From assembly GCF_020181615.1 (NCBI RefSeq), contig NZ_CP084029.1, positions 3,888,800-3,952,799 on the forward strand: a stretch of DNA of 64,000 bases, in the 5' to 3' direction. Position numbers and translations under genes: made by a program. Below are positions 30,582 through 59,158 of the stretch, in pieces. How positions within the stretch are numbered: the stretch's first letter is position 1; each line of letters begins with the position of its first letter. A model generated the notes under the pieces. That model was not told where the DNA came from and did no database searches. It was given only the letters and a program-made list of their open reading frames with translations. Source of the DNA: [Mycobacterium] crassicus (GTDB lineage Bacteria; Actinomycetota; Actinomycetes; Mycobacteriales; Mycobacteriaceae).

Positions 30582-31022
30582 GTGGTGCTGCAGCCCGTGA
30601 AAGCCCCGGTCCCGCACCCGGCCGCACTGGCCCTGCTGGTCAGCGCCGGCCTGCTGACGGCGGCCCCGACGGGCGCCGACGAACCGGCTGCGCATCACGT
30701 GCGCTACAGCGTCAGCGCAACCCAGACCGCACAGGCGCTGGTCTACTACCGCGAGGTCCAGCCGCCGAACTTCGGCGAGTACAGCCACAACCCATATCAA
30801 TACAGTCCGCGTGCCGACGTCACCATCGGACCGAACCAGCCCTGGATATTCGACACGACGCTGGCCGACCCGCAGGACTGGGCGATGGTGGTGGTGTCCC
30901 TTCCCGGGCTCCATAAGGAGCTCGCCGCACCCGGGTTCGTCTGCGAACTGCGCGTCGACGATGTGGTCGTCGCGACCGATGCCGGCACCAAGGGTGCGCT
31001 CTGTTCGATGCGGACCTGGTGA
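30582..31022 (+). CDS. Exported small protein, MmpS-like
   Basis: A 146-residue protein with an N-terminal signal sequence (hydrophobic AALALLVSAGLLTAAPTGADE, likely cleavage after GAD or TGA). The mature part HHVRYSVSATQTAQALVYYREVQ and FVCELRVDDVVVATDAGTKGALCSM, with two Cys that could form a disulfide, recalls the beta-sandwich of mycobacterial MmpS proteins, but the match is by pattern only. The start is uncertain: GTG 30582, 30585 or 30597; GGAGG lies at 30577-30581. It stands alone between the KstD-like gene and the Mce-associated genes, beneath two operator-like repeats. Confidence 0.6.
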   Translation: MVLQPVKAPVPHPAALALLVSAGLLTAAPTGADEPAAHHVRYSVSATQTAQALVYYREVQPPNFGEYSHNPYQYSPRADVTIGPNQPWIFDTTLADPQDWAMVVVSLPGLHKELAAPGFVCELRVDDVVVATDAGTKGALCSMRTW

Positions 31023-32514: not shown

Positions 32515-32973
32515 CTACATGCGCACCAGGGCGAACGTCCAGGTGTTCATGCCCGGCGGTCCGTTGAAACAACCCACGTCGAAACGTGATTCGACCACAC
32601 CGGACAGCGTGTTGGCGTCCCAGGTGTAGGTGTCGCGGGTCGGCAGGTACTGCCCCATCGGGCAATGCAGGCCGTCGCCGACGTCGCTGCTGAACGAATA
32701 CTGGCCGTCCACCAGCCGGGCGGTGCCGCCGTAGTAACTGCGGCCGAAGAAATGCGGCCGGTCGATCGCGCTCACCGTCACGCAGCCGGGCGGCAGCTCG
32801 TCGAACTTGCCGGGCGTCTCGCACGGGTAGGCCGCCCACACCCAGGAGGCGTCGGTCCAGCGGTTGCTCAGCACCTCGTAGTTGCCGTAGGGCATGTCTG
32901 CCGCGGCCCGGGGCGCCATGACGGTGGAGACGGCCAGCGCGGCGAACGCCGCACCGACAGCGACTCGAAACAT
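32515..32973 (-). CDS. Small exported protein, third of a trio after mceF
   Basis: A 152-residue secreted protein: signal peptide MFRVAVGAAFAALAVSTVMAPRAAA with a cleavage site near AAA-D (about residue 25). The mature part has four Cys (YPCETPG, PGCVTV, HCPMG, GCFNGP), suggesting two disulfides, and many aromatic residues. GGGAG precedes the ATG. Family not recognised. It resembles the 33450 protein in its opening phrase (YEVLSN-W here, YRVVSNGG there), so the two may be distant paralogues. Position at the end of the mce operon suggests a cell-envelope role in substrate uptake. Confidence 0.75.
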   Translation of the reverse strand: MFRVAVGAAFAALAVSTVMAPRAAADMPYGNYEVLSNRWTDASWVWAAYPCETPGKFDELPPGCVTVSAIDRPHFFGRSYYGGTARLVDGQYSFSSDVGDGLHCPMGQYLPTRDTYTWDANTLSGVVESRFDVGCFNGPPGMNTWTFALVRM

Positions 32974-33009
32974 TGCTTACTCCCTCACCTGTTCAAAACC
33001 ACTGGGGCA

Positions 33010-33435
33010 CTATAGATCCCCGCGGCGCCATCTGGTCTCGCCGTCCGGGATGCAGGTCAAAAACAGGCCGTCGGGCGCCTGGGCCACCTCGAAGTCATAG
33101 GCATCACATTTGCTGCCCTCCTCCTTGACGCCGTGCATCTCCGGGGATCGGAACCAGCGCGGCTCATAGCGGCGCGGCGAGGTGCAGAACACCAGCCGGC
33201 CCGGCAGGGTCGAGGGCCCTTCGACAGCGGACCCGAAGACGAAATAGGTGGTGTTCGAGCACGGCGCACCCTGCACGACATTCGGCATGATTCCGGGTGT
33301 GCACGCCGGGACGTCGCACTGCGGCACGAAGGGCTCGGGGGCGGGATCCGCGGAGGACGGGCCCGCTGTCGCCAGTGCGCCGGCAACCGCGGCCACCGCG
33401 ACGGCCGCGTGCGCCAGCATCCGGAGTTTCTGCAT
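33010..33435 (-). CDS. Small exported Cys-rich protein, second of the trio
   Basis: A 141-residue secreted protein: signal peptide MQKLRMLAHAAVAVAAVAGALATAGPSSADP, cleaved about residue 30. The mature part carries six Cys (CDVPAC, PC, FC, KCDAY, TC), enough for three disulfides. ATG at 33435 is preferred over GTG 33447 because GGGAGA lies 4 nt upstream. No family recognised. It lies 14 bp after the preceding gene in the mce operon. Confidence 0.75.
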   Translation of the reverse strand: MQKLRMLAHAAVAVAAVAGALATAGPSSADPAPEPFVPQCDVPACTPGIMPNVVQGAPCSNTTYFVFGSAVEGPSTLPGRLVFCTSPRRYEPRWFRSPEMHGVKEEGSKCDAYDFEVAQAPDGLFLTCIPDGETRWRRGDL

Positions 33436-33449
33436 GATCTCTCCCACCG

Positions 33450-33950
33450 CTACAACCGCTGAACGGTCAACGGCATCTGAACCACCGTGGGCTGGTTACG
33501 CCCACAGGCGCCCGAGACGCCGATCGTCCTGTCGTAGCCGACAAGTCGGTCGATGTTCAGTTTGTCCCACTGCCCGTTGGCATCACTGCCCTGGAACTGG
33601 TAACGCTGCTTGCCCGACGAGGTGGTGCCGTCCGGACAGGTCTGCCAATCCGGGTGGAACCGGTCGACGATCCAGCGCGAGGTGCGGAACTCCAGTGGCG
33701 CGCTCCAACCCGCGTCACTGCTGACCTGGCCGGTGCACTCGTGGGCGTTGGTGCAACTGGAGCTGAACGTCCACACCGACACGACGGTCCGCTCGTCCAT
33801 GAAGACCTCGTTGGTCTTCGCCATGCCCCCGTTGGAGACGACGCGGTAGGGGCCGTTGAGCTCAAAACCCAGTCCGGCCTGCGCCGGCGGTGCGGTGATC
33901 GCCCCGGCGATCAGCACCGCTGCCCCGACGATGAGTTCCACTGCACGCAT
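33450..33950 (-). CDS. Small exported protein, first of the trio
   Basis: A 166-residue secreted protein: signal peptide MRAVELIVGAAVLIAGAITAPPAQA, cleavage near residue 25, then GLGFELNGPYRVVSNGGMAKTNEVFMDERTV. The mature part contains four Cys (SSCTNAHECTG, TCPDG, GACGRN). The pattern (PYRVVSNG, later FRTSRWIVDRFHPDW) is seen in mycobacterial exported proteins of unknown function. GGAGGG precedes the ATG. It follows mceF by 18 bp, so the trio is probably co-transcribed with the mce genes. Confidence 0.75.
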   Translation of the reverse strand: MRAVELIVGAAVLIAGAITAPPAQAGLGFELNGPYRVVSNGGMAKTNEVFMDERTVVSVWTFSSSCTNAHECTGQVSSDAGWSAPLEFRTSRWIVDRFHPDWQTCPDGTTSSGKQRYQFQGSDANGQWDKLNIDRLVGYDRTIGVSGACGRNQPTVVQMPLTVQRL

Positions 33951-33968
33951 GATCTGCCCTCCTTCACC

Positions 33969-35543
33969 TCAGTTCGGCATCAGGTCGGTCCATGACTTGG
34001 CCGCGGAACCGGTCACCAAGTTCGTCTGCTGTTCGTAGCGCCCATCGGGAGTCAGGTACTTACCGGTGTTCGGGTCGTAGGGCACCGCCGCGACCGACGG
34101 CCCGGATCCGCCGTCGGCGTGCCCCGACGGCGCGACGCCGGGTGTCGGCAGGGGTGTGGGCCACACGTCCGGCGGCGCCGGCACCGGTGGACGCGGGGCA
34201 TCCGGCGGAGTCCCGGATCTGATGGCACCCGGCGGCATCGGGGTGCCCTCGGTCGGCGCGAAGATCCGGTCCCCGAAATCCACCCGGTCGTCGACCGGGA
34301 CGCCCTGCTTGATCAGGTTCGGGTCGAACGCACCCGGGCCGGTCAGGTGCGGGCGCATCGCGATCGGGACGAATCCCCTGGGGTCATCGCAGAGCTCGAC
34401 GGTCGGCGCCCGCTTGCCCGGATGCTCGATGCAGGGGAAGTTGCGGGCACCGCGCACCGAGGTCGGCGAGTCCTGCGGCAGCTTGCAGTACAGCCCGTCC
34501 GGGGTGTCGATGGTGGTGGTGTCCGCCGGGGACCGCCACGACGACGGCGGCAGGAACCCGACCGTGCAGGGGTTGGGGTCACCGAACGTCAGCGTGAAGT
34601 CGCCCTGCGGCAGACCGGTCGCATTGTTCTTCGGCAAGCCGAAAGACTGCTGCGCCGCAATGTATCCGGGCAGCAGCACCAGCAACTGTTCGATCGCCGG
34701 GTTGTAGGCCAGCAATACCTGCCCGACGGTGTTCATGTTCGCCAGCAGGATCGGCAGCGTCGGCTTGAGATCCTGCATCAGACCGGAGACTTCGTCGGCG
34801 AAGCCGGGCCCGCGCTGCAGGATGGCGCGCAGTTGCGGATCGTTGACGGCGACCTGTTCGGTGATCCCGGCCATGCTGCGAGCGAAGGTCCGGATCGCAT
34901 CGGTGCTCTGGTGCTGGGAGTCGAGCAGTCTTTCGCCGTCATCGATCAGGGTGCGCAGCCGACCCGAAACACCCTTGGCGTCGCCGCTGATGGTGGCTGC
35001 CGAGTCCAGCAGGGACTGGAAGTCGTAGCCGGCGCCGTCGAAGGCCAGGTAGGTCTCATCGAGCAGGTTGCTGACCTTCTCTTTGGGAATGCTGTCGACC
35101 AGCGCGCTGACCTGATCGAGCATCGGCCCGACCTGTTGCGGCACTTCGGTGTTCGACGCCGCGATCACCGAGCCGTTCTCCAGGTACGGCGCTCCGTCGC
35201 TGCGGGGCAACAGGTCGACATACTGCTCGCCGACCGCCGAAACACTGCGCACGGCGGCGAGCAGGTCCGCCGGCACTCGAGGGGATCGGTCCAGCGACAG
35301 CGTGGCGCGCACCCCGGCCGGCGTCAGTGCGACATCGGTGACCGTTCCGATCTGCACCCCGTTGTAGGTGACATTGGCGAACCGGTATAGCCCGCCGGTC
35401 TCGGGCAGGTCCAATTTGACCGTCACGCGGCCGATCCCGAGCATGGTCGGCACCCGCATGTAACCGAAGACCATCGCACCCACGCCGATCACCGAGGCGA
35501 CCAGGAACAGGATCAGCTGGATTCGGACGAACCGCGTCAGCAC
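33969..35543 (-). CDS. mceF: Mce family protein, MceF position
   Basis: A 524-residue MCE/MlaD protein. An N-terminal transmembrane helix (about residues 7-28, LILFLVASVIGVGAMVFGY) is followed by the MCE domain (KLDLPETGGLYRFANVTYNGVQIGTVTDVALTPAGVRATL, about 42-115), a long alpha-helical needle region (about 120-290), a Cys-containing segment and a Pro-rich tail. In the current model MceA-F form a hexameric channel spanning the periplasm. GTG at 35543 directly follows the mceE stop. Sixth and last mce gene. Confidence 0.93.
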   Translation of the reverse strand: MLTRFVRIQLILFLVASVIGVGAMVFGYMRVPTMLGIGRVTVKLDLPETGGLYRFANVTYNGVQIGTVTDVALTPAGVRATLSLDRSPRVPADLLAAVRSVSAVGEQYVDLLPRSDGAPYLENGSVIAASNTEVPQQVGPMLDQVSALVDSIPKEKVSNLLDETYLAFDGAGYDFQSLLDSAATISGDAKGVSGRLRTLIDDGERLLDSQHQSTDAIRTFARSMAGITEQVAVNDPQLRAILQRGPGFADEVSGLMQDLKPTLPILLANMNTVGQVLLAYNPAIEQLLVLLPGYIAAQQSFGLPKNNATGLPQGDFTLTFGDPNPCTVGFLPPSSWRSPADTTTIDTPDGLYCKLPQDSPTSVRGARNFPCIEHPGKRAPTVELCDDPRGFVPIAMRPHLTGPGAFDPNLIKQGVPVDDRVDFGDRIFAPTEGTPMPPGAIRSGTPPDAPRPPVPAPPDVWPTPLPTPGVAPSGHADGGSGPSVAAVPYDPNTGKYLTPDGRYEQQTNLVTGSAAKSWTDLMPN

Positions 35544-36722
35544 CTACCTACCGCCTTCCGGAGCAGGGGCGGCCGGCGCGGAGTTGACCGGCGCGGGTTC
35601 TTGCGCCGAGGACTGCAGGACCGGTCCTTGCAGCGGATCGTAGGAGTAGTTCAGGTACCACGGATCACCGGGCGCTGGAACCAGTTTGGTGTCTTCATCA
35701 CCCCACTGGGTGCCGGCGAACAGCGACCGCTTGAGCCGCGGCTTGGTGAGGTCGAAGATCGCGAACAGGTTCAGGAAGTCGCCCCGCACGGCGCGCTCGA
35801 TGGCGTTGGGCCCGTAAGGGAAGGCGCTCGCGTAGGCCACCGCGGCATTGAGGTCCGGGCCGATGTCGGCCAGCGCCTCCAGTGCCGGTTCCAGGTGGAC
35901 GAGGTCGGAGACCAGTTGGCTGCCGGCATCGTCGACCAGACCCGCCGACAGATCGCCGAATTTGCCCAGTTTGGTCAGCGCGGTGGTGAACTTGGGCCGC
36001 TCCTTGATCAGCACGTCGATGGCCGGGGGGATCTTGTCCAGCGCGCGATCGATGGTGTCGCGCTGCCCGGCGAAGGTACCGGCCACCCGGTTCATCTCTT
36101 GAAGGGCCACAACGATGTTGTCGCGCTGCCGGTCCAGCGCCGCGGTGAAGCGGTCCAACCGGACGAGCAGGTCGCGGATGTCGTCTTCGCGGCCCGCCAT
36201 AGTGGCGCTGAAGTTGTGGATGATGTCACCGATCTGGCCCAAACCGCCGCCGTTGACCAGCACCGCCAGCGACGACAGCGTCTGCTCGGTGGACGGATAC
36301 GTCGAGGAGTCACTCATGCCGATGGTCGCGCCGGAGGCCAGCCGCCCCGACGGAGCCTGGCCCACCGGCGGATTCAGCGCCAGGTGCATCGACCCCAGCA
36401 GGCTGGTCTGCCCCACGGTGGCCACCGCGTTGGCCGGGACTTCGACACCCGGGTTGACCGCGATCTCGACGTTGGCGTGCCAGTTGGTGACGGTCATCTT
36501 GCCGACGCTGCCGATCACCACGTCGGAGAGCATGACCGGTGAATTGGATTCCAGGGTCCCGACATTGGCCAGTTCGACACGGAAGTGCTGCGCCCCCGGA
36601 CCGCGGCCCTGGACACCGGGCAACGCTATCGAGTTCGCGCCGCCGAAGGCGCAGCCGGTGGCGGTGCAGGCGATCAGGCCGGCTAGCGCCAGACCCCGCC
36701 GCAATGACTTCAGACCGATCAT
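35544..36722 (-). CDS. mceE: Mce family lipoprotein, MceE position
   Basis: A 392-residue MCE protein with a lipoprotein signal: LALAGLIACTATGCAF offers two lipobox choices, LIAC (Cys19) and ATGC (Cys24). MCE domain FRVELANVGTLESNSPVMLSDVVIGSVGKMTV (about 48-120) is followed by helical segments (LDRQRDNIVVALQEMNRVAGTFAGQRDTIDRAL) and a Pro/Ala-rich end. MceE is the lipoprotein member in characterised mce operons (LprK/LprN type). ATG at 36722 overlaps the mceD stop (ATGA); the longer upstream frame is noise. Confidence 0.93.
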   Translation of the reverse strand: MIGLKSLRRGLALAGLIACTATGCAFGGANSIALPGVQGRGPGAQHFRVELANVGTLESNSPVMLSDVVIGSVGKMTVTNWHANVEIAVNPGVEVPANAVATVGQTSLLGSMHLALNPPVGQAPSGRLASGATIGMSDSSTYPSTEQTLSSLAVLVNGGGLGQIGDIIHNFSATMAGREDDIRDLLVRLDRFTAALDRQRDNIVVALQEMNRVAGTFAGQRDTIDRALDKIPPAIDVLIKERPKFTTALTKLGKFGDLSAGLVDDAGSQLVSDLVHLEPALEALADIGPDLNAAVAYASAFPYGPNAIERAVRGDFLNLFAIFDLTKPRLKRSLFAGTQWGDEDTKLVPAPGDPWYLNYSYDPLQGPVLQSSAQEPAPVNSAPAAPAPEGGR

Positions 36723-38170
36723 GGCGCGGGCGCTCCTTCCGCGGGCAGCGGCGAGCCCGGCGGCGGCCCCGGCTGTGGTGGGCCGCCCGGCAACAGCATC
36801 CCGTCGAAGGTGGTCGGGCTCGGCAGGGGCGCCCCGGGGAGCAGCGGTGGCGTCGCCGCGGCGGGCAGGCCGTCCGGCACCAGCGAGCCGCGCGGTTGCG
36901 GTGGGTCGGTCCAGCCCGGCGGTTGCGCGACATCGCCGTTCAGACCGGTGTAGGCGGAGATCGACGGTGTCTGTTCTGGGAGGTCCGGCGGATGCTGATT
37001 GTGCGGCATCAGTGCCGGGTCGGTGTAGATCAGCTTGTCCGGGCTGCCCGACTTGGTCAGGTACGGGGCTATCGGCAGCGGAAATCCGTTGAAGTTCAAC
37101 AGGCGCATGGCCGGCCCGAGGTAGTGCGTGCACAGCTTGCCGGTCTCGGCCGCTGTCACGTTGCCGACGCCGCCGATCATCGCGCAGATCGCCTGCACGG
37201 GGTTGGAGAAGTTGGCGAATGCGAACGACCCCAGCGGGGTTCCGCTGGTGACGTTGTACATGTTGAGGGTGTTGGCGATCGCGTTCGGGGTGATGTGCAA
37301 GATGTTGCGGATCGCGTTCTTGGAGTCGGCCAGCGTCTGGGTCACCTTCGCCAGGCCGTCTACCGCTTCGACGGTCTCGGCGCGACTGCCCGCCACGAAA
37401 TCCTTCACTTTGTCGATGGCGCCGGCGAATTCGTTGAGGGCGGAGTCCAGGCTCGAACGGCTGTCGTTGACCACGCTGGTCAGTGTCGCCAGCCGTGATT
37501 CGAACACCACGATCTGCTGATCGCTGTCACGCATCGCGGTCACGAAGGTCTGCATGCCCTCGATGATGTCGACGATGTTCCCGCTGCCCTCGGCGAAGAT
37601 CCGGGCCACCCCGGACAGTTGCGCCAATGTTTCGCGCAGCTTGGCGCCGTTGCCGTCCATCGCGGCGGCAGCGGTGTCGATGAACCGCGCGGCCGAGGTC
37701 TCGTCGATGCCGCTGCGGGGACCCAGCTCGGTGGCCAGCCGGTTGAGTTGGGTCTTGACCTCGTCCCACTCCACCGGAACGGCGGTGCGCTCCCGCGGTA
37801 TCACCGCGCCGTCTCTCATGGTGGGGCCGTCACCGCGGTGATATGCCGGGGTCAACTGCACGAAGCGGGCGGCCACCAGGTTGGGTGCGACGATGACGGC
37901 CTTGGCGTCGGCCGGGATCGGCACCTTGCGGTCCACTCGCAGGGTGAGCTTGGCCTGGGTGCCCTGCGGTTCGATGCGGTCGATGGTGCCGACCTTCACC
38001 CCGGAGATCCGGACCTCGTCGCCGGCGTAAATGGCGGTGGCGGTGGGGAAATAGGCGCTGATCGTGGTCGGCTTCAGCACCGTCTGCCGGACCAGGGTCG
38101 CCGCACCCGCGAGCAACGCCACGGCCAGCAGTGCGGCCCCGGCGATCTGCAGTGGTTTTCGAGTCGTCAT
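36719..38170 (-). CDS. mceD: Mce family protein, MceD position
   Basis: A 483-residue MCE protein: N-terminal membrane anchor (IAGAALLAVALLAGAATLV, about 9-27), MCE domain (ISAYFPTATAIYAGDEVRISGVKVGTIDRIEPQGTQAKLTL), a helical region to about residue 300, then a conserved C-terminal segment (YLGPAMRLLNFNGFPLPIAPYL) and a strongly Pro-rich tail (PGGPPQPGPPPGSPLP) typical of MceD. ATG overlaps the mceC stop. Confidence 0.93.
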   Translation of the reverse strand: MTTRKPLQIAGAALLAVALLAGAATLVRQTVLKPTTISAYFPTATAIYAGDEVRISGVKVGTIDRIEPQGTQAKLTLRVDRKVPIPADAKAVIVAPNLVAARFVQLTPAYHRGDGPTMRDGAVIPRERTAVPVEWDEVKTQLNRLATELGPRSGIDETSAARFIDTAAAAMDGNGAKLRETLAQLSGVARIFAEGSGNIVDIIEGMQTFVTAMRDSDQQIVVFESRLATLTSVVNDSRSSLDSALNEFAGAIDKVKDFVAGSRAETVEAVDGLAKVTQTLADSKNAIRNILHITPNAIANTLNMYNVTSGTPLGSFAFANFSNPVQAICAMIGGVGNVTAAETGKLCTHYLGPAMRLLNFNGFPLPIAPYLTKSGSPDKLIYTDPALMPHNQHPPDLPEQTPSISAYTGLNGDVAQPPGWTDPPQPRGSLVPDGLPAAATPPLLPGAPLPSPTTFDGMLLPGGPPQPGPPPGSPLPAEGAPAP

Positions 38171-39261
38171 CGCGGCGGTAGGTCTCCTGGTTGCGGAATC
38201 CCGTTGACCGGGAACGGCAGCTCGGCACGCGGCCCGGCATTGTCGGCCGGCTGGCCGGCATCGACACCGCGCCGGAAGCCGAAGGCATAGTCGAAGAACG
38301 GCTGGAACAGCTGCGGCAGCATCAGGTTCGGCACATAGGCGCTGTAGTAGGCGCCGTTGGACACCGTCTCGCCCTGGGTGAGTTCATATTTGGCCAGGCC
38401 GGGCAGGGCCTTGGCCAGGTTGTCGCGGTTCTTCACCAGGATCTTGTTCAGCGAGTTGATCTCGTCCAGCGTCGGTTTGAGCTGTTCGTTGTTCTGATCG
38501 ACCAGTTCGGACAACTGCCGCGACACCGCCGAGGTACTGACGAGCAGGTTGACGATCGCCTGCCGGCGGGTGTTGAGCACCTCGACGAGGCTGTTGGCGT
38601 CCAGGATCAGCGTGTTGATCTGCTGGCTGCGTTCGGAGAACACCCCGGTCACCTCGGCTGCGGACTTCAACAACTCGGCGAGGCTTTCGTTGCGGTTGTT
38701 CAGCGAGCGCGACAGCCGGCTCAAGCCGTCGAAGGTCGGGCCCAGCCGCGGGGCGATCTGGTCGATCGTCTCCGAGAGGGTGTCCAACGAGCGGTTGAGC
38801 GACTCGGTATCGGTGCCGGCCGTGTTGGAGGTCAGCTCACCGACCACGTCGGTCAGCGAGTACGGCGACGAGGTGCGGGTGACCGGGATGACGTCGAGCG
38901 GGTGCATCTTGCCGCTGCCCGCCGGCTCCACCGTCAGCACCCGGTCACCGAGCAGCGATCCGGTGCGGATGTGCGCGGCGGTCTGCAGGCCCAGCGGATA
39001 CTTGCCGGCCATCGAGAACGTCACCAGGGCGTCACCGTCGTCGAGCCTCACGTCGGTGACCGAACCCACCTTGATCCCCGACAGCGTGACGTCGTCGCCG
39101 GTGCCCAGCCCGCCGGCCTCGGTGAACTTCGCCTGGTAGCGCACCGAAGTGGCCCATTGCAGCAGTTGTTCGGGTTGCAGTCCGATCGCGACGACGAATC
39201 CGATCAGGATCATGCCGATCAGGCCCATCCGGGCCAGTTGCGCACCACGGTATTTCAGCAT
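38167..39261 (-). CDS. mceC: Mce family protein, MceC position
   Basis: A 364-residue MCE protein: anchor MLKYRGAQLARMGLIGMILIGFVVAIGLQP, MCE domain (YQAKFTEAGGLGTGDDVTLSGIKVGSVTDVRLDDGDALVTF), helical region (LSETIDQIAPRLGPTFDGLSRLSRSLNNRNESLAELL), and C-terminal NLMLPQLFQPFFDYAFGFRRG seen in MceC proteins. ATG at 39261 was chosen as the start of the anchor; the open frame runs 99 codons further upstream through mceB sequence and is not coding there. A 43-bp gap separates it from mceB. Confidence 0.92.
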   Translation of the reverse strand: MLKYRGAQLARMGLIGMILIGFVVAIGLQPEQLLQWATSVRYQAKFTEAGGLGTGDDVTLSGIKVGSVTDVRLDDGDALVTFSMAGKYPLGLQTAAHIRTGSLLGDRVLTVEPAGSGKMHPLDVIPVTRTSSPYSLTDVVGELTSNTAGTDTESLNRSLDTLSETIDQIAPRLGPTFDGLSRLSRSLNNRNESLAELLKSAAEVTGVFSERSQQINTLILDANSLVEVLNTRRQAIVNLLVSTSAVSRQLSELVDQNNEQLKPTLDEINSLNKILVKNRDNLAKALPGLAKYELTQGETVSNGAYYSAYVPNLMLPQLFQPFFDYAFGFRRGVDAGQPADNAGPRAELPFPVNGIPQPGDLPPR

Positions 39262-39304
39262 CGGCGGCCCCCGTGCTCTGGTGAAGCGCCGCGCAGCACA
39301 GTGG

Positions 39305-40333
39305 TCAGTCGGTGTCGCTGCATCGACCCACCTCCTGCTTGATCCACGGGAACACCGCCGTGCGGCCCTGGGTGTCGCTGACCCGGATCTGGACCGCGCA
39401 CAGGTAGTACTGGATGAACCCGCCGTAGGCGCCGAGCCGAATGGCCTTGCGGTAGTTCTCCGGCGCTTTCTGCAGCGACATGTCGAGACCGGCTTGGTCG
39501 GCGTTGACGGCCTTGGCCAGCCGGTTGGTCTGCGCAATGGTGTCGGTGAGCGGATCACGTGCTTTGCCCAGCAGATCGGCCAGCGACGAGGTGCCGCGGT
39601 CCAGCGCCGTCACCGCCGTACCGATCGGGTCGCGGTCGGCGGCCAGTCCTTCGACCAGCTTGCCCAGGCGGTCGATCGCCCCGGACAGTCGCTTGTCACC
39701 GCTGGTCGCGGTGGCCAGCACCGCACGCAGTTGGTCGATCAGGGATTCGATCACCTGGTTGTTGTCGGCCAGCGAGTTGGAGAACGACGACGACTGCGAC
39801 ATCAGCGAGTCGAGGGTGCCGCCCTGGCCCTGCATGATCTGGATCAGCGACGCGGTGAGCGCGTTGACGTCCTGCGGGTTGAGCCCCCGGATCACCGGCT
39901 TGAGTCCGTTGAGCAACAGGTCCAGGTCCAACGCGGGTGCGGTCCGTTCCAGCGGGATCTGGGCCCCGGCCGGCAGCAGGCGGGTCGAGCCCGGCCCGTC
40001 CGCCAGCTCCAGGTAGCGGTCCCCGACCAGGTTCAGGTACCGCACCGCGGCCTGGGTGCCGGTGGTCAGCGCGATGTTCCGGTCGGCCTGGAACTTCACC
40101 AGCACCGTGCCGTCCGGTCGCAGGGCCACACCGCCGACGGTGCCGACCCGCACCCCGGCGACCCGCACGCTGTCGCCCGACTTCAGCCGGGACGCATCAC
40201 TGAACACCGCGCTGTAGCCGGTGGTCGGCCCGGTGCGCACCTCGGCGAAGATCGCGAACAGCAACGCCGTCGCCAGCAGCATCACCACGGCGAAGCTGCC
40301 GAACTTCAGGATGGTTCCGGCGGTGCCCCTCAT
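39305..40333 (-). CDS. mceB: Mce family protein, MceB position
   Basis: A 342-residue MCE protein: anchor FGSFAVVMLLATALLFAIFAEV (about 11-32), MCE domain (YSAVFSDASRLKSGDSVRVAGVRVGTVGGVALRPDGTVLVKF), helical needle (LLLNGLKPVIRGLNPQDVNALTASLIQIMQGQGGTLDSLM is the classic MceB block) and C-terminal YLCAVQIRVSDTQGRTAVFPWIKQEVGRC. ATG at 40333 overlaps the mceA stop by 4 bp. Confidence 0.94.
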   Translation of the reverse strand: MRGTAGTILKFGSFAVVMLLATALLFAIFAEVRTGPTTGYSAVFSDASRLKSGDSVRVAGVRVGTVGGVALRPDGTVLVKFQADRNIALTTGTQAAVRYLNLVGDRYLELADGPGSTRLLPAGAQIPLERTAPALDLDLLLNGLKPVIRGLNPQDVNALTASLIQIMQGQGGTLDSLMSQSSSFSNSLADNNQVIESLIDQLRAVLATATSGDKRLSGAIDRLGKLVEGLAADRDPIGTAVTALDRGTSSLADLLGKARDPLTDTIAQTNRLAKAVNADQAGLDMSLQKAPENYRKAIRLGAYGGFIQYYLCAVQIRVSDTQGRTAVFPWIKQEVGRCSDTD

Positions 40334-41628
40334 CCCGGCATCCCGACCTGGGCGGTGTTGCGGGGCGGGCCGCCGAGCGGCCCGAACAGCGCCTGCTTGA
40401 GACCCTCGGAATTGAGCAGGATGCCCTGGTTGCCGTACTCGTAGGGGTCGGCCCCCACGTCGCCGATCAGGGCCGGCACCCGGAACTCGGGTGGAACGTC
40501 GGGCAGGCCCAGTTCCGCACAGTAGGACCGTTCGGCGGTGGCAGCCACCTTCGGCAGGTGATCGGGATAGCGGTAACGCTCCCGGCCCAGGGTGAAGCTG
40601 GCGGTGATCACGATGCCGGGCACGGTGAACGGAGGCGACTTGGCGAACGGCACCAAGCCGCCGATCGAGCAGCCGAGGTGCTCGTGGTACTTGTCCACCA
40701 ACTGCGCCGTCGGCTCCAGATCCCGGGTCAGGTCGGTCAAGGCCTGCCGGTTGTCGCCCAGCACCTCATTGCCGGTGTCGGCCAGCCCGATGGCACTGAG
40801 CAGGAAGGTGTCCAGGCTGTTGTGCTCCTGTACGATGCTGTCGCTCATGACGGCGGTGTTGGCGAGGGTCGCGGTGAGATCCGGCGCCGCGTCGGCGTAG
40901 GACGCGAATACCGGTGCCATGGTGGCGGTCTCGCGCTCCAGGGTGCCCAGGCTGGGTTCGATGTCGGCGAGCAGCTTGTCGAAGTCGGTGAGCGCCTGCC
41001 CGATCTTGTGGCCGCGGCCGTTGAACGCCGTCGAGACGGCGCCCAACGTCTCGTTGAGCTTCTTCGGGTCGATCTTGTCCAGCACCCGCACGAGTTGCTG
41101 GAACACCGTGTTGATCTCCACCGTGACGTGTTGTCCCGCCAGGGTCTGACCGGCGTGCATCCGGGTCGCGGTGGGATCCGGCGGCTCCACCAGCTCGACG
41201 AACTTGGCGCCGAACACCGTTGATGAGCCGATGCGAGCGGTGGCGTTCGCCGGAATCAACCGCAGCTGATCGGGCTGCAACTCCAGCCGCAGGGCCGCGG
41301 TGCCGTCCGGCAGGGTGTCGATGGCCCCGACCTTGCCCACCTGCACGCCGCGCACCTTGACCTTGGCGTCGGGGTACATCACCAGACCGGCTCGTGGCGA
41401 CAGCACGGTGATCCCCACGGTGCGGGTGAAGCTGCCCCGGAACAGGCCGATCGGCAACCCGACCAGGGCCACGATGACCGCGACCGTCGCCAGCCCGATC
41501 AGCGGCCGCACGTAGGCCGGCTGCGCCCGCCGCTCCCCGATGGGCCGATGCCGGCCCGCGGCGGAACCCCGCTGGCCCGGAAGTTCGTCCCGTTCCAACG
41601 GTGGATCTGCAGTCGCCCCGAGAACCAT
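40330..41628 (-). CDS. mceA: Mce family protein, MceA position
   Basis: A 432-residue MCE protein. A basic, disordered N-terminal tail (about 1-40) is followed by a transmembrane helix (about 41-62), MCE domain (ITVLSPRAGLVMYPDAKVKVRGVQVGKVGAIDTLPDG), long helical region (LDKIDPKKLNETLGAVSTAFNGRGHKIGQALTDFDKLL) and a C-terminal domain with two Cys (LGCSIGG, YCAEL). In known actinobacterial mce operons two permease genes, yrbEA and yrbEB, directly precede mceA; here the 37 bp upstream lead straight into a thiolase gene. ATG at 41628 has only a weak ribosome site (GAGG 13 nt upstream). Confidence 0.93.
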   Translation of the reverse strand: MVLGATADPPLERDELPGQRGSAAGRHRPIGERRAQPAYVRPLIGLATVAVIVALVGLPIGLFRGSFTRTVGITVLSPRAGLVMYPDAKVKVRGVQVGKVGAIDTLPDGTAALRLELQPDQLRLIPANATARIGSSTVFGAKFVELVEPPDPTATRMHAGQTLAGQHVTVEINTVFQQLVRVLDKIDPKKLNETLGAVSTAFNGRGHKIGQALTDFDKLLADIEPSLGTLERETATMAPVFASYADAAPDLTATLANTAVMSDSIVQEHNSLDTFLLSAIGLADTGNEVLGDNRQALTDLTRDLEPTAQLVDKYHEHLGCSIGGLVPFAKSPPFTVPGIVITASFTLGRERYRYPDHLPKVAATAERSYCAELGLPDVPPEFRVPALIGDVGADPYEYGNQGILLNSEGLKQALFGPLGGPPRNTAQVGMPG

Positions 41629-41665
41629 TACTCAGCCATCACCTCGACGTCAGCGCGACCCATCG

Positions 41666-42823
41666 CTACCGGTCCCCTTCCACGATGGTGACTGCCGAGA
41701 CCGCCGTCGGTCCCCCGATGTTGTGCGCCAAGCCAATCCGAGCGCCGTCGACCTGATTGACCGCCGTTCCCCGCAACTGCTCGAAGAGTTCTACGCACTG
41801 TGCCACACCGGTGGCGCCCGGCGGGTGGCCTTTGGACTTCAAGCCACCGCTGGGGTTCACCGGCAGTGCGCCGCCGACGCTGGTCACCTCGGCCTCCAGC
41901 AGCTTGTGTGCCTCGAACCGGTCGGCGAAGCCGAGATCTTCGTAGCTGATCAGCTCCACACCGGTGAAATAGTCGTGTACCTCGGCGACATCGATGTCGG
42001 CGGGCGTCAACCCGGCCATGGCGAACGCCTGTTTCGCGGCGCGCACCGTCGCCGGAAACGTCGTCATGTCGCGCTTGTGCTGATGCATCACCGAGTCCAG
42101 TCCCAGCCCGACCCCGCGGATCCACACCGGTCGATCGGTGAAGCGGTCGACGACATCCTCGCCGGCCAAAATCAGGGCGGCCGCGCCGTCGCTCTGCGGT
42201 GCACAGTCGTACACCCCGAACGGGGTCACCACGGTGGGTGCGTCGAGCGCCTGTTGGGCGGTGATCTCGAATCGCAGCCGGGCGCGGGGGTTGTTCACGC
42301 CGTGCCGGTGGTTCTTGACCGCCACCATCGCCAGGTGCTCGCGGCTGGCCGGCGACTCGTGCAGGTAGCGCCGCACATGCAGCGCGAAACCGGCCGGGGC
42401 GACCAACCCGAGCGGATAGTCCCAGGCCATGTCGCGGGCGGTTCCCTCCCAGGCCCACAGCATGTCCTTGGTGGCGTTCTCCCGCAGCTTGTCCGCACCC
42501 ATGACCAGGGCCACGTCGATCGCCCCGGAGGCGACCCCGAACAGGGCATTGCGCACGGCGTCGTTGCCGGTGGCACAGGAGTTCTCCACCCGGGTGACCG
42601 GCAGATCCGGCAGCCCGAGGCTGTCGGCGAGGATCCCGGAGGGAAACCCGTCGGTGGTGCCGAGCGCTCCGAACCAGGCCGCCTGGACGTCGGTCTTGGC
42701 CAGCCCCTTGTCGACGCTGGCGGCGCAGTCGGCGAACGCCATCGGCAGCAGGTCCTTGATGCCCAGGGCGAAATGCTCACGGAACGGGGTCATCCCCGCA
42801 CCGACGATCGCGACACGCTTCAC
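41666..42823 (-). CDS. Thiolase family protein (acetyl-CoA acetyltransferase/SCP2-thiolase type)
   Basis: A 385-residue thiolase superfamily protein: MKRVAIVGAGMTPF start, active-site Cys in VENSCATGND, His in GLKSKGHPPGATG, and LAHNIGG near the C-terminus. The HDYF segment (AEVHDYFTGVE) is characteristic of the SCP2-thiolase/lipid-transfer group, which works with DUF35 partners. It overlaps the upstream HMG-CoA-synthase-like/DUF35 gene (GTGA), strongly suggesting a complex of the two. Expected to carry out thiolytic or retro-Claisen cleavage of a 3-keto-acyl-CoA. The 37-bp gap to mceA implies co-transcription with the mce genes. Confidence 0.93.
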   Translation of the reverse strand: MKRVAIVGAGMTPFREHFALGIKDLLPMAFADCAASVDKGLAKTDVQAAWFGALGTTDGFPSGILADSLGLPDLPVTRVENSCATGNDAVRNALFGVASGAIDVALVMGADKLRENATKDMLWAWEGTARDMAWDYPLGLVAPAGFALHVRRYLHESPASREHLAMVAVKNHRHGVNNPRARLRFEITAQQALDAPTVVTPFGVYDCAPQSDGAAALILAGEDVVDRFTDRPVWIRGVGLGLDSVMHQHKRDMTTFPATVRAAKQAFAMAGLTPADIDVAEVHDYFTGVELISYEDLGFADRFEAHKLLEAEVTSVGGALPVNPSGGLKSKGHPPGATGVAQCVELFEQLRGTAVNQVDGARIGLAHNIGGPTAVSAVTIVEGDR

Positions 42824-44085
42824 GCCACCGCCTCCGGTTGCTGCGCCGGCTCGAACGGTTCGAAGGCATAGCCGTAATCCGGGACCCCCGAGCGCACCGC
42901 GACGCGGCGCAGCACCATCCGGCCCCGGTCGCCGATCCAGACGCCGCCTGCCGGGGCGCCGGTCACCTTCACCAGTGCGCGGACCGCGACGTCGTCGAGT
43001 TCCACGATGACCAGCGAATACGGCGTCAACAGCCCGGGCACCGGCATCTGCACCGTGACCTCGGTGTAGACCGTGCCGACCCGCGGCAGCTCGACCAACT
43101 CGTAGCTGGTGCTCAAGGCGCAGTCGTCACCGACCCGGTAGCGCGGGGGGAAGTCGAGTTCGTCGCTGCCGGGCTGCTTGCCGGCCTCCCAGCGGACCTT
43201 GGCCTCGAAGGCGCGCTCGTAGGCGGCGAGCGAAATCGGCAGGTCCGCTCCGGGGGTGCTCACGTGGTCGGGAAGCGGCCGGGCCACCGGTTCGCGGCGG
43301 TGCACCCGCACTTGAGTTTCGGGGGCCTCAGGCCCCTCGGCGACGATGATCCCGGACAGGTTGGCCTGCTCGACGGCCAGCAGCGGACCCGGCGTGCGGG
43401 TTTCGGCGAGCGTTGCCAGCGCGAACAGCCCCGAGCTGGCGCCGATGGTGGGCAGCGGATCCGGATCGCCGCTGCACATCTCGGCGGCCCGGGCGTGTTC
43501 CAGCCCGGCCAGCATGACCGGGGTCTGGACCCACGCCGCGCCCAGCGACGCCACCACGCCGCGCTCGTGCAACAGCCGCGGGTCGCCGTAGTCGTGCACC
43601 ACCCCGGCATTGCGGGTGCGCACCGGCAGGCTGCGCGCGATGCGGGCCGCGGTGCGGATCCGCAGCCCGTCCTCGGCGGTCAGCACCGCGACCGCGCCCG
43701 CCCCACACGGCGGTCCCAGCTTCGCCTCTCCTCCGTCGAGCCTCGCTGAACCGCCGGCGGGGTCCACGTCCGCCCCGATGATCAGGGTGCGCGGCCGCGC
43801 CGAACTCAGAGCGTCCAGCGCGGCGGGTGCGCCGCCGAGTCGTTCGACCACCTCCAGCTCGGGGTCCAAACCCAGGCCCGCCAACAACACCGCCGCGTTG
43901 CTGCTCTCGGTGAGCGGGAGATCGCGGCTCACCAGCACCAGTCGCTCGACCGCACCGCCGTCGGTCAGGGCGGCCCGGCCGGCCTCGACGGCCATGGTGA
44001 TGGCGTCCTCGTCGTCACCGGCGACACGGCGCACGGGCACACCCCAGCACGGAAGGTACGTGCCAATCGAAGCAACGTGCGGCAT
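42820..44085 (-). CDS. HMG-CoA-synthase-like domain fused to a DUF35 OB-fold
   Basis: A 421-residue two-domain protein: N-terminal HMG-CoA-synthase/thiolase-like fold (about 1-300; MPHVASIGTYLPCWGVP, ADVDPAGGSARLDGGEAKLGPPCGAGAVAVL) and C-terminal DUF35-like OB-fold (about 320-415; LPRVGTVYTEVTVQMPVPGLLTPYSLVIVEL). The nucleophile Cys expected in an ACxGG motif is absent (ERLGGA, residues 81-86), and the Cys pairs of the DUF35 zinc ribbon are missing. It is therefore probably a non-catalytic or channelling partner for the thiolase it overlaps by 4 bp. ATG at 44085 follows AGGGG. Confidence 0.8.
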   Translation of the reverse strand: MPHVASIGTYLPCWGVPVRRVAGDDEDAITMAVEAGRAALTDGGAVERLVLVSRDLPLTESSNAAVLLAGLGLDPELEVVERLGGAPAALDALSSARPRTLIIGADVDPAGGSARLDGGEAKLGPPCGAGAVAVLTAEDGLRIRTAARIARSLPVRTRNAGVVHDYGDPRLLHERGVVASLGAAWVQTPVMLAGLEHARAAEMCSGDPDPLPTIGASSGLFALATLAETRTPGPLLAVEQANLSGIIVAEGPEAPETQVRVHRREPVARPLPDHVSTPGADLPISLAAYERAFEAKVRWEAGKQPGSDELDFPPRYRVGDDCALSTSYELVELPRVGTVYTEVTVQMPVPGLLTPYSLVIVELDDVAVRALVKVTGAPAGGVWIGDRGRMVLRRVAVRSGVPDYGYAFEPFEPAQQPEAVA

Positions 44086-44113
44086 CGCGATCCCCTTGCC
44101 CCTACCCGATCGC

Positions 44114-45319
44114 CTAGGTGACCGCGCCGAGGGTTTTGAGTTCGATGATCCGGTCCCAGTCCAGGCCGAGGTCGACCAGGATCTCGTCGGTCTGCTCGGC
44201 GAACCCGGGGGCCGGACCGGTTTCGGGGGCGGCGACATCGAACTGGACCGGGTTGGCGACCAATTCGAGCTCACCGGCCCGCACGATGTATTCGTTGGCG
44301 CGGATCTGCGCGTCCTGGGCCGCCTGCAGGGTGTCCTGGACCGGTGCCCACGGGCCGGCCAGGGTGGCGAAGCGCCCGCTCCACTCGGGCAGCGTCCGCT
44401 TGGCCATCGCCGCGCGCAGGATCTCCACGGCGGCCGGGGTGTGCTCGGCGAACGACTGCGCGGTGGCGAACCGTGGATCGTCGATGTAGTCGTGCAGTTC
44501 CATGTGTGTGCACACGTCGGCCCAGAACTTGGTGGGCTGCATCATGACAAACGAGATGTAGCGCTCGTCGGCGGTCGCGTAGACCCCGACCAGCGGGTTG
44601 ATCGGCGAGCCGTGCACACCGGGCGGCTGCTGGATCAGGCGCTCGCCCAGATGACTGGTCAACGCGACGGTGTGGCCCATGGCCCACAGGCCACTGCCCA
44701 GCAGGGACACGTCCACCACCGACGGCTCACCGGTGCGCTCGCGCTTGAACAGCGCCGCCGCGATACCGCCGGCCAGGTTGGTTCCGGAGATGGTGTCGCC
44801 GTAGGCCGGTCCGGGCGGGCCGATCATGCCTTCGATACCGGGTGGGGTGATGGTGGCGGCGGTACCGGCACGACACCAGAAGGCGGTCATGTCGTAGCCG
44901 CCCTTTTCCGATTCGATGCCGCGGGGGCCCAGTGCGCTGCCGCGGGCGTAGACGATCTTCGGGTTGACCGCGCGGATGTCCTCGACGTCCATGGCGAACT
45001 TGCGGCGGTGACCGGGAAGGAAACTGGTCAGGAAGACGTCTGCACGCTTCGCCAGTTCGAGCAACACCTCACGGCCCTCGGCCACCGAGATGTCCAGGCC
45101 GATACTGCGTTTGCCGCGGTTGGCGTGCTCGATGTTGGGGTTGGGGTCGCCCTCGACCCGCAACATGCCGGTCTGCCGCAGCCCGCGCTGCGGATCACCG
45201 GTGACCGCGTGCTCGACCTTGATGACCTCGGCGCCCCACTCGGCCAGCACCGCGCCGGCCGACGGGACGAAGCCGTACATCGCGACCTCGAGCACCCGGA
45301 TGCCCTCCAGCGGCTTCAT
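44114..45319 (-). CDS. CaiB/BaiF CoA-transferase family protein
   Basis: A 401-residue class III CoA-transferase of normal single-unit length: MKPLEGIRVLEVAMYGFVPSAGAVLAEWGAEVIKVE start, NRGKRSIGLDIS, and VVDVSLLGSGLWAMG, where the first Asp matches the catalytic Asp forming an aspartyl-CoA anhydride. Activates a free acid with CoA from a pathway thioester or racemises an alpha-methyl-branched acyl-CoA. ATG at 45319 overlaps the ALDH stop, so aldehyde oxidation and CoA activation are coupled genetically. Confidence 0.92.
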   Translation of the reverse strand: MKPLEGIRVLEVAMYGFVPSAGAVLAEWGAEVIKVEHAVTGDPQRGLRQTGMLRVEGDPNPNIEHANRGKRSIGLDISVAEGREVLLELAKRADVFLTSFLPGHRRKFAMDVEDIRAVNPKIVYARGSALGPRGIESEKGGYDMTAFWCRAGTAATITPPGIEGMIGPPGPAYGDTISGTNLAGGIAAALFKRERTGEPSVVDVSLLGSGLWAMGHTVALTSHLGERLIQQPPGVHGSPINPLVGVYATADERYISFVMMQPTKFWADVCTHMELHDYIDDPRFATAQSFAEHTPAAVEILRAAMAKRTLPEWSGRFATLAGPWAPVQDTLQAAQDAQIRANEYIVRAGELELVANPVQFDVAAPETGPAPGFAEQTDEILVDLGLDWDRIIELKTLGAVT

Positions 45320-46821
45320 CCGGCCTGCCCGGCGGCCGGCGTGGCGAATGTCTTGGACTCCAGGAACTCCTCCAGGCCGGCGACGCCCATCTCCCGGCCG
45401 ATGCCGGACTGCTTGTATCCCCCGAACGGGGCGTCGGGACTGAAGTAGTTGCCGCCGTTGATCGAGAACGTTCCGGTCCGGATCCGGCGGGCCATGGCCA
45501 CCGCTCGGTCCTGTCCGCCGAAGATCGCGCCGGAGAGCCCGTAGATGGAGTTGTTCGCGATGCGCACCGCATCCTCGTCGTCGTCGTAGCCGATCACGGT
45601 CAGGACCGGCCCGAAGACCTCCTCCTGAGCGATCTCGCTGTCCGGGTCGACATTCGTCAGCAGTGTCGGGGTGTAGAAGAAGCCGGGGTCGACCTTCTCG
45701 CCGCCGGCCACCAGGGTGGCGCCGGCGGCGACCGCGCGCTGCACCATGCCGTCGACCTTGTCGCGCTGGCGGGCGCTGATCAGCGGGCCCATGTAGGTCT
45801 TGGGGTCGGTCGGGTCGCCGTAGCGCACGTGGGAGAAGTTGGTCTTGATCAGCTCGACGATCTCGTCGTGATGACTGTTGGGCACCAGCAGTCGTGAGGT
45901 CAGCGCGCAGCCCTGGCCGGCGTGCGTGACCATAGAGAACGAGGCGAAGACCGCGGCCATGTTGAAGTCGGCGTCGTCGAGCACGATCGCCGCGGACTTA
46001 CCGCCCAGTTCCAGGAAGACGCGCTTGAGTGTCCCGCTGGCGGCGGCCATGATCGCCCGCCCGGTCGGGGTGGATCCGGTGAAGGTGACCATGTCCACGT
46101 CCGGATCGGTGGTCAGCACCGCTCCGACCTCGGGGTCCGACGAGCTCAGTACATTGACCACCCCGGCCGGAATGTCGGTGTGGTTGGCGATCAGCTCGCC
46201 GAGGGCCAGGGTGACCAGCGGGGTGTCGGGCGCGGCCTTGAGCACCACGGTGCAGCCGGCGGCCAGCGCGGGGGCCAGCTTCGCCAGTGCCAGTTGGTTG
46301 GGATAGTTGTAGGCGATGATCGCGGCGACGACGCCGGCGCCTTCCTTCTCCACCCAGCGGTGGTGCAGCATCCCGCGACTCTCGATGTTGCCGAGGTCTT
46401 CGGTCATCGGATAGTCCTCGAGCAGATCGGCGTAGTAGCGCACGATCGCGATCGGCCCGTCCAGTTGTGCGCCCTGGGTCAGCGCCGCGGTGGCGCCGAC
46501 CTCGGCGATGGTGAGCTCGGCGAACTCCTCGCGGTGTTCGACCAGAGCCTTGTGCAGCTGATCGAGGCAGCGGATTCGCAGTGCGGTGTCGGTGGCCCAG
46601 CCGCTGGTGTCGTAGGCCCGCCGCGCCGCTGCGACGGCCTCGGCGGCCTGCTCGATGGTCGCCTCGGGGGCGTAACCCAGCACTTCTCCGGTGGCGGGGT
46701 TGAGCGACGCGAACGTGCGGTCGGCATCGACCAGCTTGCCGTCGATCAGCAGCCGCCGCCCAGCGACCTGCCCAGGGTCGGTACCACCGGTGCTGGTCCC
46801 TGCCGTGTCCTGCGATCGCAT
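45316..46821 (-). CDS. Aldehyde dehydrogenase family protein
   Basis: A 501-residue NAD(P)-dependent aldehyde dehydrogenase. Seen: TFTGSTPTGRAI (cofactor loop), LELGGKSAAIVLDDAD with the general-base Glu, the nucleophile Cys in THAGQGCALTSRLLV, and EEVFGPVLTVIGYDD. GGAGG 5 nt before the ATG at 46821. First gene of the operon that runs through CoA-transferase, thiolase and the mce genes to 32515; the promoter region is shared with a divergent SDR at 47041. Likely oxidises an aldehyde produced from the transported substrate. Confidence 0.94.
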   Translation of the reverse strand: MRSQDTAGTSTGGTDPGQVAGRRLLIDGKLVDADRTFASLNPATGEVLGYAPEATIEQAAEAVAAARRAYDTSGWATDTALRIRCLDQLHKALVEHREEFAELTIAEVGATAALTQGAQLDGPIAIVRYYADLLEDYPMTEDLGNIESRGMLHHRWVEKEGAGVVAAIIAYNYPNQLALAKLAPALAAGCTVVLKAAPDTPLVTLALGELIANHTDIPAGVVNVLSSSDPEVGAVLTTDPDVDMVTFTGSTPTGRAIMAAASGTLKRVFLELGGKSAAIVLDDADFNMAAVFASFSMVTHAGQGCALTSRLLVPNSHHDEIVELIKTNFSHVRYGDPTDPKTYMGPLISARQRDKVDGMVQRAVAAGATLVAGGEKVDPGFFYTPTLLTNVDPDSEIAQEEVFGPVLTVIGYDDDEDAVRIANNSIYGLSGAIFGGQDRAVAMARRIRTGTFSINGGNYFSPDAPFGGYKQSGIGREMGVAGLEEFLESKTFATPAAGQAG

Positions 46822-47002
46822 CCAAGCCTCCCCGCCGGGTAACTACGTTCTCATGTGCGGCGAATCTTACATCGCGACAGTGAGAATTCAAGGGGAGCAC
46901 GAATACCGCCGACACCGCCCTGCGGCATCGTCGGTCGGCTACCGTTCGACATATTCCCTGCTGAGGGCCGGTCTGCGCGATCCTTGCCAGAAACGGCCCT
47001 GC

Positions 47003-47017
47003 GAGAGTACGATTCTC
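47003..47017. promoter_or_regulatory. Putative operator GAGAAT-N3-ATTCTC type (1 mismatch)
   Basis: GAGAGTACGATTCTC differs from the perfect 6-3-6 repeat by one base. It lies 23 bp upstream of the SDR GTG start (47041) within the 219-bp intergenic region that also serves the ALDH-mce operon; isolated half-sites (GTTCTC near 46847, GAGAAT near 46882) lie closer to the ALDH start. Confidence 0.55.
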
Positions 47018-47040
47018 ATCGTTCGGGAAGGGGATTCTTT

Positions 47041-58949: not shown

Positions 58950-59158
58950 GGATCCGGCTGGATCGCACGCTGTGCGACGGGTTCGGCTACTGCGCCAAGC
59001 ACGCACCGAAGTATTTCTCGTTGGACGACTGGGGATATGCGTCCATGACCGGCGACGGAACGGTGGCCGCCGGCGACGAGGACGATGTCATGCGGGCGCT
59101 GATGGACTGCCCGATTCACGCCATCATCGAGATCAACGAGGAAGGCGACGACATATGA
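58946..59158 (+). CDS. Ferredoxin, P450-coupled 3Fe-4S/4Fe-4S type
   Basis: A 70-residue ferredoxin with CDGFGYC (Phe at the variable position) and distal CPIHAI. It overlaps the NuoF-like stop and the DUF35-thiolase start by 4 bp each, so its synthesis is coupled to both. Nearest plausible roles are acceptor of the NuoF-like protein and donor to a P450. Confidence 0.93.
   Translation: MRIRLDRTLCDGFGYCAKHAPKYFSLDDWGYASMTGDGTVAAGDEDDVMRALMDCPIHAIIEINEEGDDI

Follow-up and report, generated by a model that had tools for sequence, protein, structure and literature searches.

The window analysed here is a stretch of 64,000 nucleotides from [Mycobacterium] crassicus (assembly GCF_020181615.1, positions 3,888,800-3,952,799 of NZ_CP084029.1, a single 4.87 Mb contig of a Mycolicibacter-like genome). 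It carries six mce genes, mceA to mceF, without the two yrbE permease genes that complete the canonical actinobacterial mce operon, described as two yrbE and six mce genes (Casali and Riley 2007, PMC1810536). The window set is probably one half of a split Mce transporter, whose permeases would be supplied in trans after relocation of the yrbE pair, because the genome holds exactly one unpaired mce set and one unpaired yrbE pair, both are conserved throughout a Mycolicibacter clade, and they occur together.

Inventory of mce and yrbE genes

The MlaE/YrbE family PF02405 matched 16 times in the whole genome and not once in the window. Grouped by position, the 16 MlaE/YrbE domains form eight yrbE pairs and the 48 MCE domains form eight mce sets. 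Seven mce sets are linked to yrbE pairs, the window set is unpaired, and the search for orphan pairs that the initial annotation had suggested as a check found exactly one, at 852,752-854,227 (0.853 Mb). The initial annotation had described the operon as lacking yrbE; this holds for the window, but the absence is local to the operon, as the genome has eight pairs. The orphan YrbEB protein matches chain J of 8FED (E 1e-91), in which chain I is named YrbE1A. The EExDA loop, named as the YrbE coupling loop for the ATPase (PMC1810536), reads EEIDA in the orphan YrbEB and EEIEA, with E replacing D, in the orphan YrbEA (by eye). Annotation pipelines that seek only adjacent yrbE genes would label such mce sets incomplete.

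The window set belongs to a 13-gene minus-strand array at 32515-46821. Three of its starts (HMGS-like/DUF35, mceC and mceE) were picked by eye and are approximate. The genes and the junction concerned are:

45316-46821, minus strand: aldehyde dehydrogenase (ALDH), first gene of the array (PF00171, E 2.6e-145)
44114-45319, minus strand: CaiB, family III CoA-transferase (PF02515, E 2.3e-76)
42820-~44085, minus strand: fusion of a KAS-III/HMG-CoA-synthase (HMGS)-like domain and a DUF35 OB domain (Pfam OB_ChsH2_C, 28.5 bits, cut-off 27.1)
41666-42823, minus strand: thiolase of the DUF35-partner type (Pfam Thiolase_C_1; PDB 7yvy_A, E 2.1e-61; 6esq_A, E 1.1e-56)
41629-41665, minus strand: thiolase-mceA junction, the site of yrbEA-yrbEB in relatives (synteny comparison)
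40330-41628, minus strand: mceA (TIGR00996, 215 bits)
39305-40333, minus strand: mceB (TIGR00996, 203 bits)
38167-~39267, minus strand: mceC (TIGR00996, 199 bits; start by eye)
36719-38170, minus strand: mceD (TIGR00996, 229 bits)
35544-~36722, minus strand: mceE, with a lipobox-like N terminus by eye (TIGR00996, 194 bits; start by eye)
33969-35543, minus strand: mceF (TIGR00996, 231 bits)
33450-33950, minus strand: exported protein with an Rv2253/PknI-type domain (NF052447, 86.7 bits, cut-off 35)
33010-33447, minus strand: small exported protein, signal-like N terminus by eye, no Pfam or NCBIfam-type family match
32515-32973, minus strand: small exported protein, last gene of the array, signal-like N terminus by eye, no family match

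The six Mce proteins are encoded in the order mceA to mceF and each scores above the TIGR00996 cut-off. The tight array from ALDH to the exported proteins, as the initial annotation had drawn it, is borne out by the coordinates: no gap exceeds 37 bp when the chosen starts are used, and there are five 4-bp overlaps between neighbours. Because of this spacing, and because a simple scan found no terminator-like site between thiolase and mceA, we infer that the array is read as one transcript.

Gene order in relatives

Named genomes were scanned with the window MceA, and the best 80 loci from 237 relatives were kept; among these, identity to Mycolicibacter sp. MYC340 is 93%. The Mycolicibacter clade is defined here as the first 14 loci listed (13 from Mycolicibacter and one from Mycobacterium sp. 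UM_WGJ) together with L044, which is also named Mycolicibacter, making 15 further loci, or 16 with the source genome. Outside the clade, 58 of 65 loci have yrbE beside the mce genes; within it none of the 15 does, nor does any of four further clade mceA loci. Thiolase and yrbEA are both present in 23 of the 80 loci, and most of those 23 whose contig reaches far enough show the order ALDH-CaiB-HMGS-like/DUF35-thiolase-yrbEA-yrbEB-mceA. The operon with yrbEA-yrbEB between thiolase and mceA is found in Mycolicibacterium and relatives, and the window operon is therefore a known gene order minus the yrbE pair.

The seven loci outside the clade that show no yrbE consist of six on draft contigs (L042, L046, L055, L078, L083 and L088) that break off no more than about 125 bp from the mceA match, as though the assembly had been interrupted by a repeated yrbE pair, and one lone mceA relative (L081:6650-7906, identity 57%), for which a stretch of 17.9 kb showed neither yrbE nor any other mce gene. 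The latter can be compared with the Mce1A paralogue that M. smegmatis encodes as an orphan. M. talmoniae has thiolase, yrbEA-yrbEB and mceA side by side; its thiolase frame (L040:5369-7645) has no start of its own and continues from an unrelated upstream frame, which is either a rearrangement or an assembly fault.

The initial annotation had placed a thiolase where yrbE should be. The thiolase does adjoin mceA here, but it has replaced nothing, as it already preceded yrbE in relatives; a thiolase that substitutes for YrbE is ruled out by this side-by-side synteny. Thiolase and HMGS-like genes are kept in the window locus and in eight of the 15 other clade loci, and are lost in seven of the 16 (L031-L036 and L038), where the DNA before mceA resembles thiolase remnants by eye; three of the four further clade loci (L205-L207) have lost them as well. 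Judged by the loss in seven of 16 loci, this part of the operon is dispensable.

These losses show that the region decays, and they are what could be said for reading the mce set or the orphan pair as a remnant in decay, left by two unrelated losses in one clade. However, all six Mce proteins give full-strength matches above 600 bits in 15 of 15 clade loci, and both orphan YrbE proteins score above 500 bits in 16 of 16. Furthermore, dN/dS values (NG86; 55 pairs from 11 genomes) are 0.08 and 0.07 for the orphan YrbE pair and 0.15-0.21 for MceA-F; by these ratios both halves are under purifying selection, and decay is a very improbable explanation.

A YrbE-free Mce complex that works with a different inner-membrane partner, for example a protein of the operon, was one of two options in the initial annotation. 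The only point for it is the absence of yrbE from the operon. Neither inspection by eye nor the family scans revealed a multi-pass permease candidate among the array genes, a conserved YrbE pair exists elsewhere in the genome, and the thiolase adjoined yrbE before the loss and is itself dispensable. This option finds no support, and we give it hardly any credence.

The orphan yrbE pair

Every one of the 16 clade genomes has a match to the orphan YrbEA at 93-100% identity, compared with a best match of 86-89% in ten other genomes. The gene order around it, ECH-yrbEA-yrbEB-mutase-luciferase-like-CaiB on one strand, where ECH is an enoyl-CoA hydratase gene and the mutase is a methylmalonyl-CoA-mutase-like gene, is the same in all 16 and in three further closed clade genomes. 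In the 16 genomes, 15-19 kb around the pair was read without finding an mce gene. In the eight clade genomes with both loci on one chromosome-sized contig, taken as circular, the shorter path between the orphan pair and the mce locus measures at least 1.5 Mb. Among 248 genomes sampled from the genus, the orphan YrbEA and the window MceA were found in the identical 12, with cut-offs (E 1e-148 and E 1e-200, respectively) preset from earlier scores to separate the clade. As far as sampled, then, a yrbE pair encoded elsewhere always accompanies this mce type, a pattern that the initial annotation had counted against its own proposal; of its two options, permeases borrowed from another locus is the one that these data favour. 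On this basis the orphan pair would be the cognate YrbE pair of the window mce set.

It could instead serve another system, such as an MlaE-type transporter that lacks a needle and belongs to the mutase cluster, or several Mce sets at once, while the window set borrows the permeases of another operon, most likely the closest linked paralogue at 4.14 Mb. A second yrbEA, 85-89% identical to the orphan, is present in nine of the 16 clade genomes, and in other mycobacteria near-identical yrbE pairs occur in two diverged mce operons (see below), where exchange looks possible. In the other seven genomes, which include drafts, a second yrbEA was not seen at 85% identity or above, yet these genomes keep the window-type mce set; the surroundings of the orphan pair are free of mce genes over the stretches read, and in the genus sample the pair and the window mce type go together one to one. 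We therefore regard this alternative as unlikely, and a split transporter with the orphan pair as its permease as the better account.

Operator-like sites and a doubled TetR gene

Both halves of the putative system carry similar operator-like sites. Three RTGAGAAY sites (46847, 46880 and 47012) lie between ALDH and a divergent short-chain dehydrogenase/reductase (SDR) gene, and at least one TGAGAA precedes ALDH in 51 of 54 loci. The corresponding window features are:

46847-47019, no strand: divergent ALDH/SDR promoter region with three RTGAGAAY operator-like sites, of which 47012 fits the full palindrome with two mismatches
30549-30556, no strand: RTGAGAAY operator-like site, shortly before 30582-31022 (motif match)

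Further full or half operator-like sites in the window are at 14319, 53527 and 57614, and several of the window sites stand shortly before predicted genes.

A pattern built from the RTGAGAAY sites found 16 genome sites, against three for the reversed pattern, and nine of the 16 are at 3.888-3.975 Mb. The palindrome TGAGAAY-NNN-RTTCTCA with at most one mismatch occurs at eight distinct places in the genome: five at 3.888-3.975 Mb flanking the window, two at 0.862-0.890 Mb near the orphan pair, and one elsewhere. With up to three mismatches it gave 188 matches per strand, against 42 for the reversed pattern. Seven other genomes contain 7, 6, 5, 6, 5, 7 and 1 palindromes with one mismatch, and the reversed pattern none. 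A TetR gene adjoins a one-mismatch site in each cluster, and the twins are 78% identical (L201:3936-4586, minus strand, and L202:10723-11511, plus strand). Two TetR copies were present in all eight clade genomes tested and one in nine of ten other mycobacteria; the tenth, M. litorale F4, lacks it, and the single palindrome site mentioned above is in this genome too.

At the orphan locus, a YGAGAAY half-site is found at -90 to -107 before yrbEA in 19 of 19 genomes, as TGAGAAY in 15. In all 16 clade loci TATTGGCATTCTC occurs in the promoter of the neighboring mutase, and 12 of them have the full TTCTCA; TGAGAA or TTCTCA was found near the mutase start in seven of 14 other genomes. The mutase is present in 14 of 15 other genomes searched; in 12 of these it is on the contig of the mce operon, 46 to about 124 kb away, with same-contig calls that are partly inferred, and in the other two, both drafts, it is on another contig. 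The mce operon and the orphan pair are thus in one apparent TetR regulon, with the repressor doubled in the clade. Because the mutase shares a contig with the mce operon at this distance in relatives, a single catabolic supercluster seems to have come apart in the Mycolicibacter clade.

Comparison of 0.840-0.892 Mb with the window plus 3.953-3.968 Mb found TetR as the only shared gene (at least 45% protein identity over 120 amino acids), together with two further short stretches of DNA similarity (67-69%). This rules out, for the stretches compared, that the supercluster was duplicated as a whole, and the two clusters therefore look like complementary parts and not like copies. We can only guess that a tandem duplication ending at yrbEB and starting at the mutase would give both the yrbEB-mutase junction and the second TetR; counter to this, it is ECH and not thiolase that precedes the orphan pair.

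Proposed model and weight of the evidence

The ancestral operon would have had the order ALDH-CaiB-HMGS-like/DUF35-thiolase-yrbEA-yrbEB-mceA-F. In the Mycolicibacter ancestor yrbEA-yrbEB presumably left it for their present place between the ECH and mutase-like genes, at least 1.5 Mb off. YrbEAB from the orphan locus would assemble in the membrane with the MceA-F needle and an MceG-type ATPase, the assembled transporter would import a hydrophobic compound that the co-encoded CoA enzymes degrade, and the TetR repressor present in both halves could keep the two loci co-expressed.

Phylogenetic trees of concatenated proteins (FastTree) place the clade as sister to M. talmoniae for both YrbE (77 rows, support 0.89) and Mce (83 rows, support 1.0). 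The YrbE trees agree with a relocation and do not prove it. Several observations weigh against the model. The approximately unbiased (AU) test on YrbE proteins rejects none of four placements (p-values of 0.72 for sister to M. talmoniae, 0.31 for slow growers, 0.19 for the neoaurum type and 0.18 for the own linked paralogue type). On DNA, with a fast tree search, it rejects the own-paralogue placement alone (p 0.038), and slow growers fit slightly better than M. talmoniae (0.65 vs 0.44); ultrafast bootstrap support (UFBoot) for the M. talmoniae grouping is 69. All the co-occurrence is inside one clade and is therefore not independent evidence. None of the eight best palindrome places is inside the window, where the ALDH/SDR site has two mismatches, and the orphan yrbEA promoter has a half-site only. 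Given the AU tests, the YrbE phylogeny was discarded as proof of the origin of the orphan pair; its signal is weak, and the relocation therefore rests mainly on synteny and on the one-to-one pattern.

Near-identical yrbE tracts in other mycobacteria

Two mce operons of Mycobacterium sp. M26 share a tract of 1651 bp at 99.8% DNA identity (L045:8318-9968 and L094:8321-9971) that covers yrbEA-yrbEB and stops at its end, with flanking mce genes about 72-73% identical. YrbEB was then searched in 13 genomes, not a random sample, picked for contig breaks at this point or for this operon group, and two equal-scoring copies were found in six. By DNA comparison, four of these have 97.1-99.8% identity over 1639-1738 bp, one of them the complete genome of M. 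litorale F4; a fifth, with short contigs, has 98.1% over 1361 bp, and the sixth gave a single alignment of 77.7%. Besides M26 the tract pairs are L180/L191, L182/L192, L184/L194 and L186/L195, and with M26 the identities range between 97 and 99.8%. In the first four pairs (L045/L094, L180/L191, L182/L192 and L184/L194) the tract ends at the end of yrbEB. The mceA genes beside it are 68-81% identical in the four genomes. In two of these four one copy follows a thiolase, and no thiolase was seen in the stretch beside the other copy. M. litorale F4 has a second similar block of 390 bp upstream, and one of its two mceA genes reads in two frames; that mce set may therefore be damaged.

Gene conversion is the likely cause of the near-identical tracts. 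They hint, more strongly than any other observation here, that a single permease sequence could serve two Mce sets, and suggest that permeases are exchangeable between diverged mce operons. A tentative extension, which we hold with clearly less confidence than the split itself, is that YrbEAB is a shared exchangeable module and that the MceA-F needle sets the cargo. Gene conversion would homogenise the permease, and Mycolicibacter would have uncoupled the pair into a stand-alone locus, under a duplicated repressor, which may feed this Mce set and perhaps others. Permease sharing becomes open to direct tests through the natural uncoupling throughout a clade, in which both halves are retained and apparently co-regulated, and through the near-identical yrbE pairs that adjoin diverged Mce sets in other species.

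Catabolic genes of the array and the window

The DUF35 part of the fusion protein is supported by Pfam, as the initial annotation had it, but the HMGS-like domain named alongside it is weakly supported by sequence. In a profile search of PDB chains the protein matched 6esq_E (DUF35, E 3.2e-4), KAS III chains weakly (E about 0.03), and no HMGS chain for the HMGS-like part. Furthermore, the invariant ERLGGAPA segment, within which we would expect the active-site cysteine, carries no cysteine in 17 aligned sequences. Because of the weak match and the cysteine-free segment we would not call this part an HMG-CoA synthase. The window also holds a second DUF35-thiolase gene (58882-60810), with a zinc ribbon, an OB domain and a thiolase C-terminal domain in one frame of 642 amino acids.

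For ALDH the nearest NCBIfam model is TIGR04284 (aldehy_Rv0768), with 652 bits, under its cut-off of 775. The surrounding window is a large catabolic cluster with cytochromes P450, amidohydrolases, acyl-CoA dehydrogenases, a LigB-type dioxygenase and flavin oxygenases. A protein of 790 amino acids at 6079-8451 has two family III CoA-transferase stretches. As a guess, the cargo of the transporter may be a hydrophobic ring compound.

Comparison with known systems

The chains of the thiolase/HMG-CoA synthase/DUF35 complex 6ESQ, which we take to be of archaeal origin, match the thiolase and the DUF35 domain of the array; the array differs in having the HMGS-like and DUF35 parts in a single protein and in giving no HMGS chain match.

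A regulon described for Mycobacterium sp. VKM Ac-1817D on phytosterol, with a 'motif X' and an Rv0767c orthologue (PMC6593523), is alike in that a TetR protein and a palindromic, possibly autoregulatory site precede operons of P450, SDR and aldehyde dehydrogenase genes. A link of the present operator or TetR to Rv0767c or motif X was looked for and none could be shown. According to the same account, only one mce operon of at least nine, mce4-like, is induced on phytosterol, 3-4-fold. By that study phytosterol is not favoured as the cargo.

For M. avium subsp. paratuberculosis, Table 3 of PMC1810536 and PMC6830979 list MAP2189-MAP2194 as six mce genes whose yrbE cells are blank. This set is likewise yrbE-less, and the entries concerned give neither an explanation nor an orphan pair. 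Such a set has been in print since 2007, and the class is therefore not wholly new. No report of this yrbE/mce split was found among the titles and abstract openings screened in open-licence literature on yrbE and mce genes. What is unexpected is that the separation is so clean and so widely conserved. According to PMC1810536, mce operons evolve without shuffling, a view that the uncoupled loci qualify: for this mce family, relocation and near-identical yrbE tracts, as read from the sequences, do not fit it.

In the M. smegmatis Mce1 system, MceG and the Mce1A paralogue MSMEG_6540 are encoded outside the operon, and YrbE1A/B-MceG is described as the core ABC transporter (PMC10517005, PMC9882608). 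That system is a precedent for Mce subunits supplied in trans, although there yrbE stays in the operon, whereas in Mycolicibacter the permease pair itself is unlinked. With the canonical mce operon the window operon shares six mce genes in order, exported proteins downstream and a YrbE pair of the same family in the genome; it differs in having no yrbEA-yrbEB directly before mceA, the pair being unlinked.

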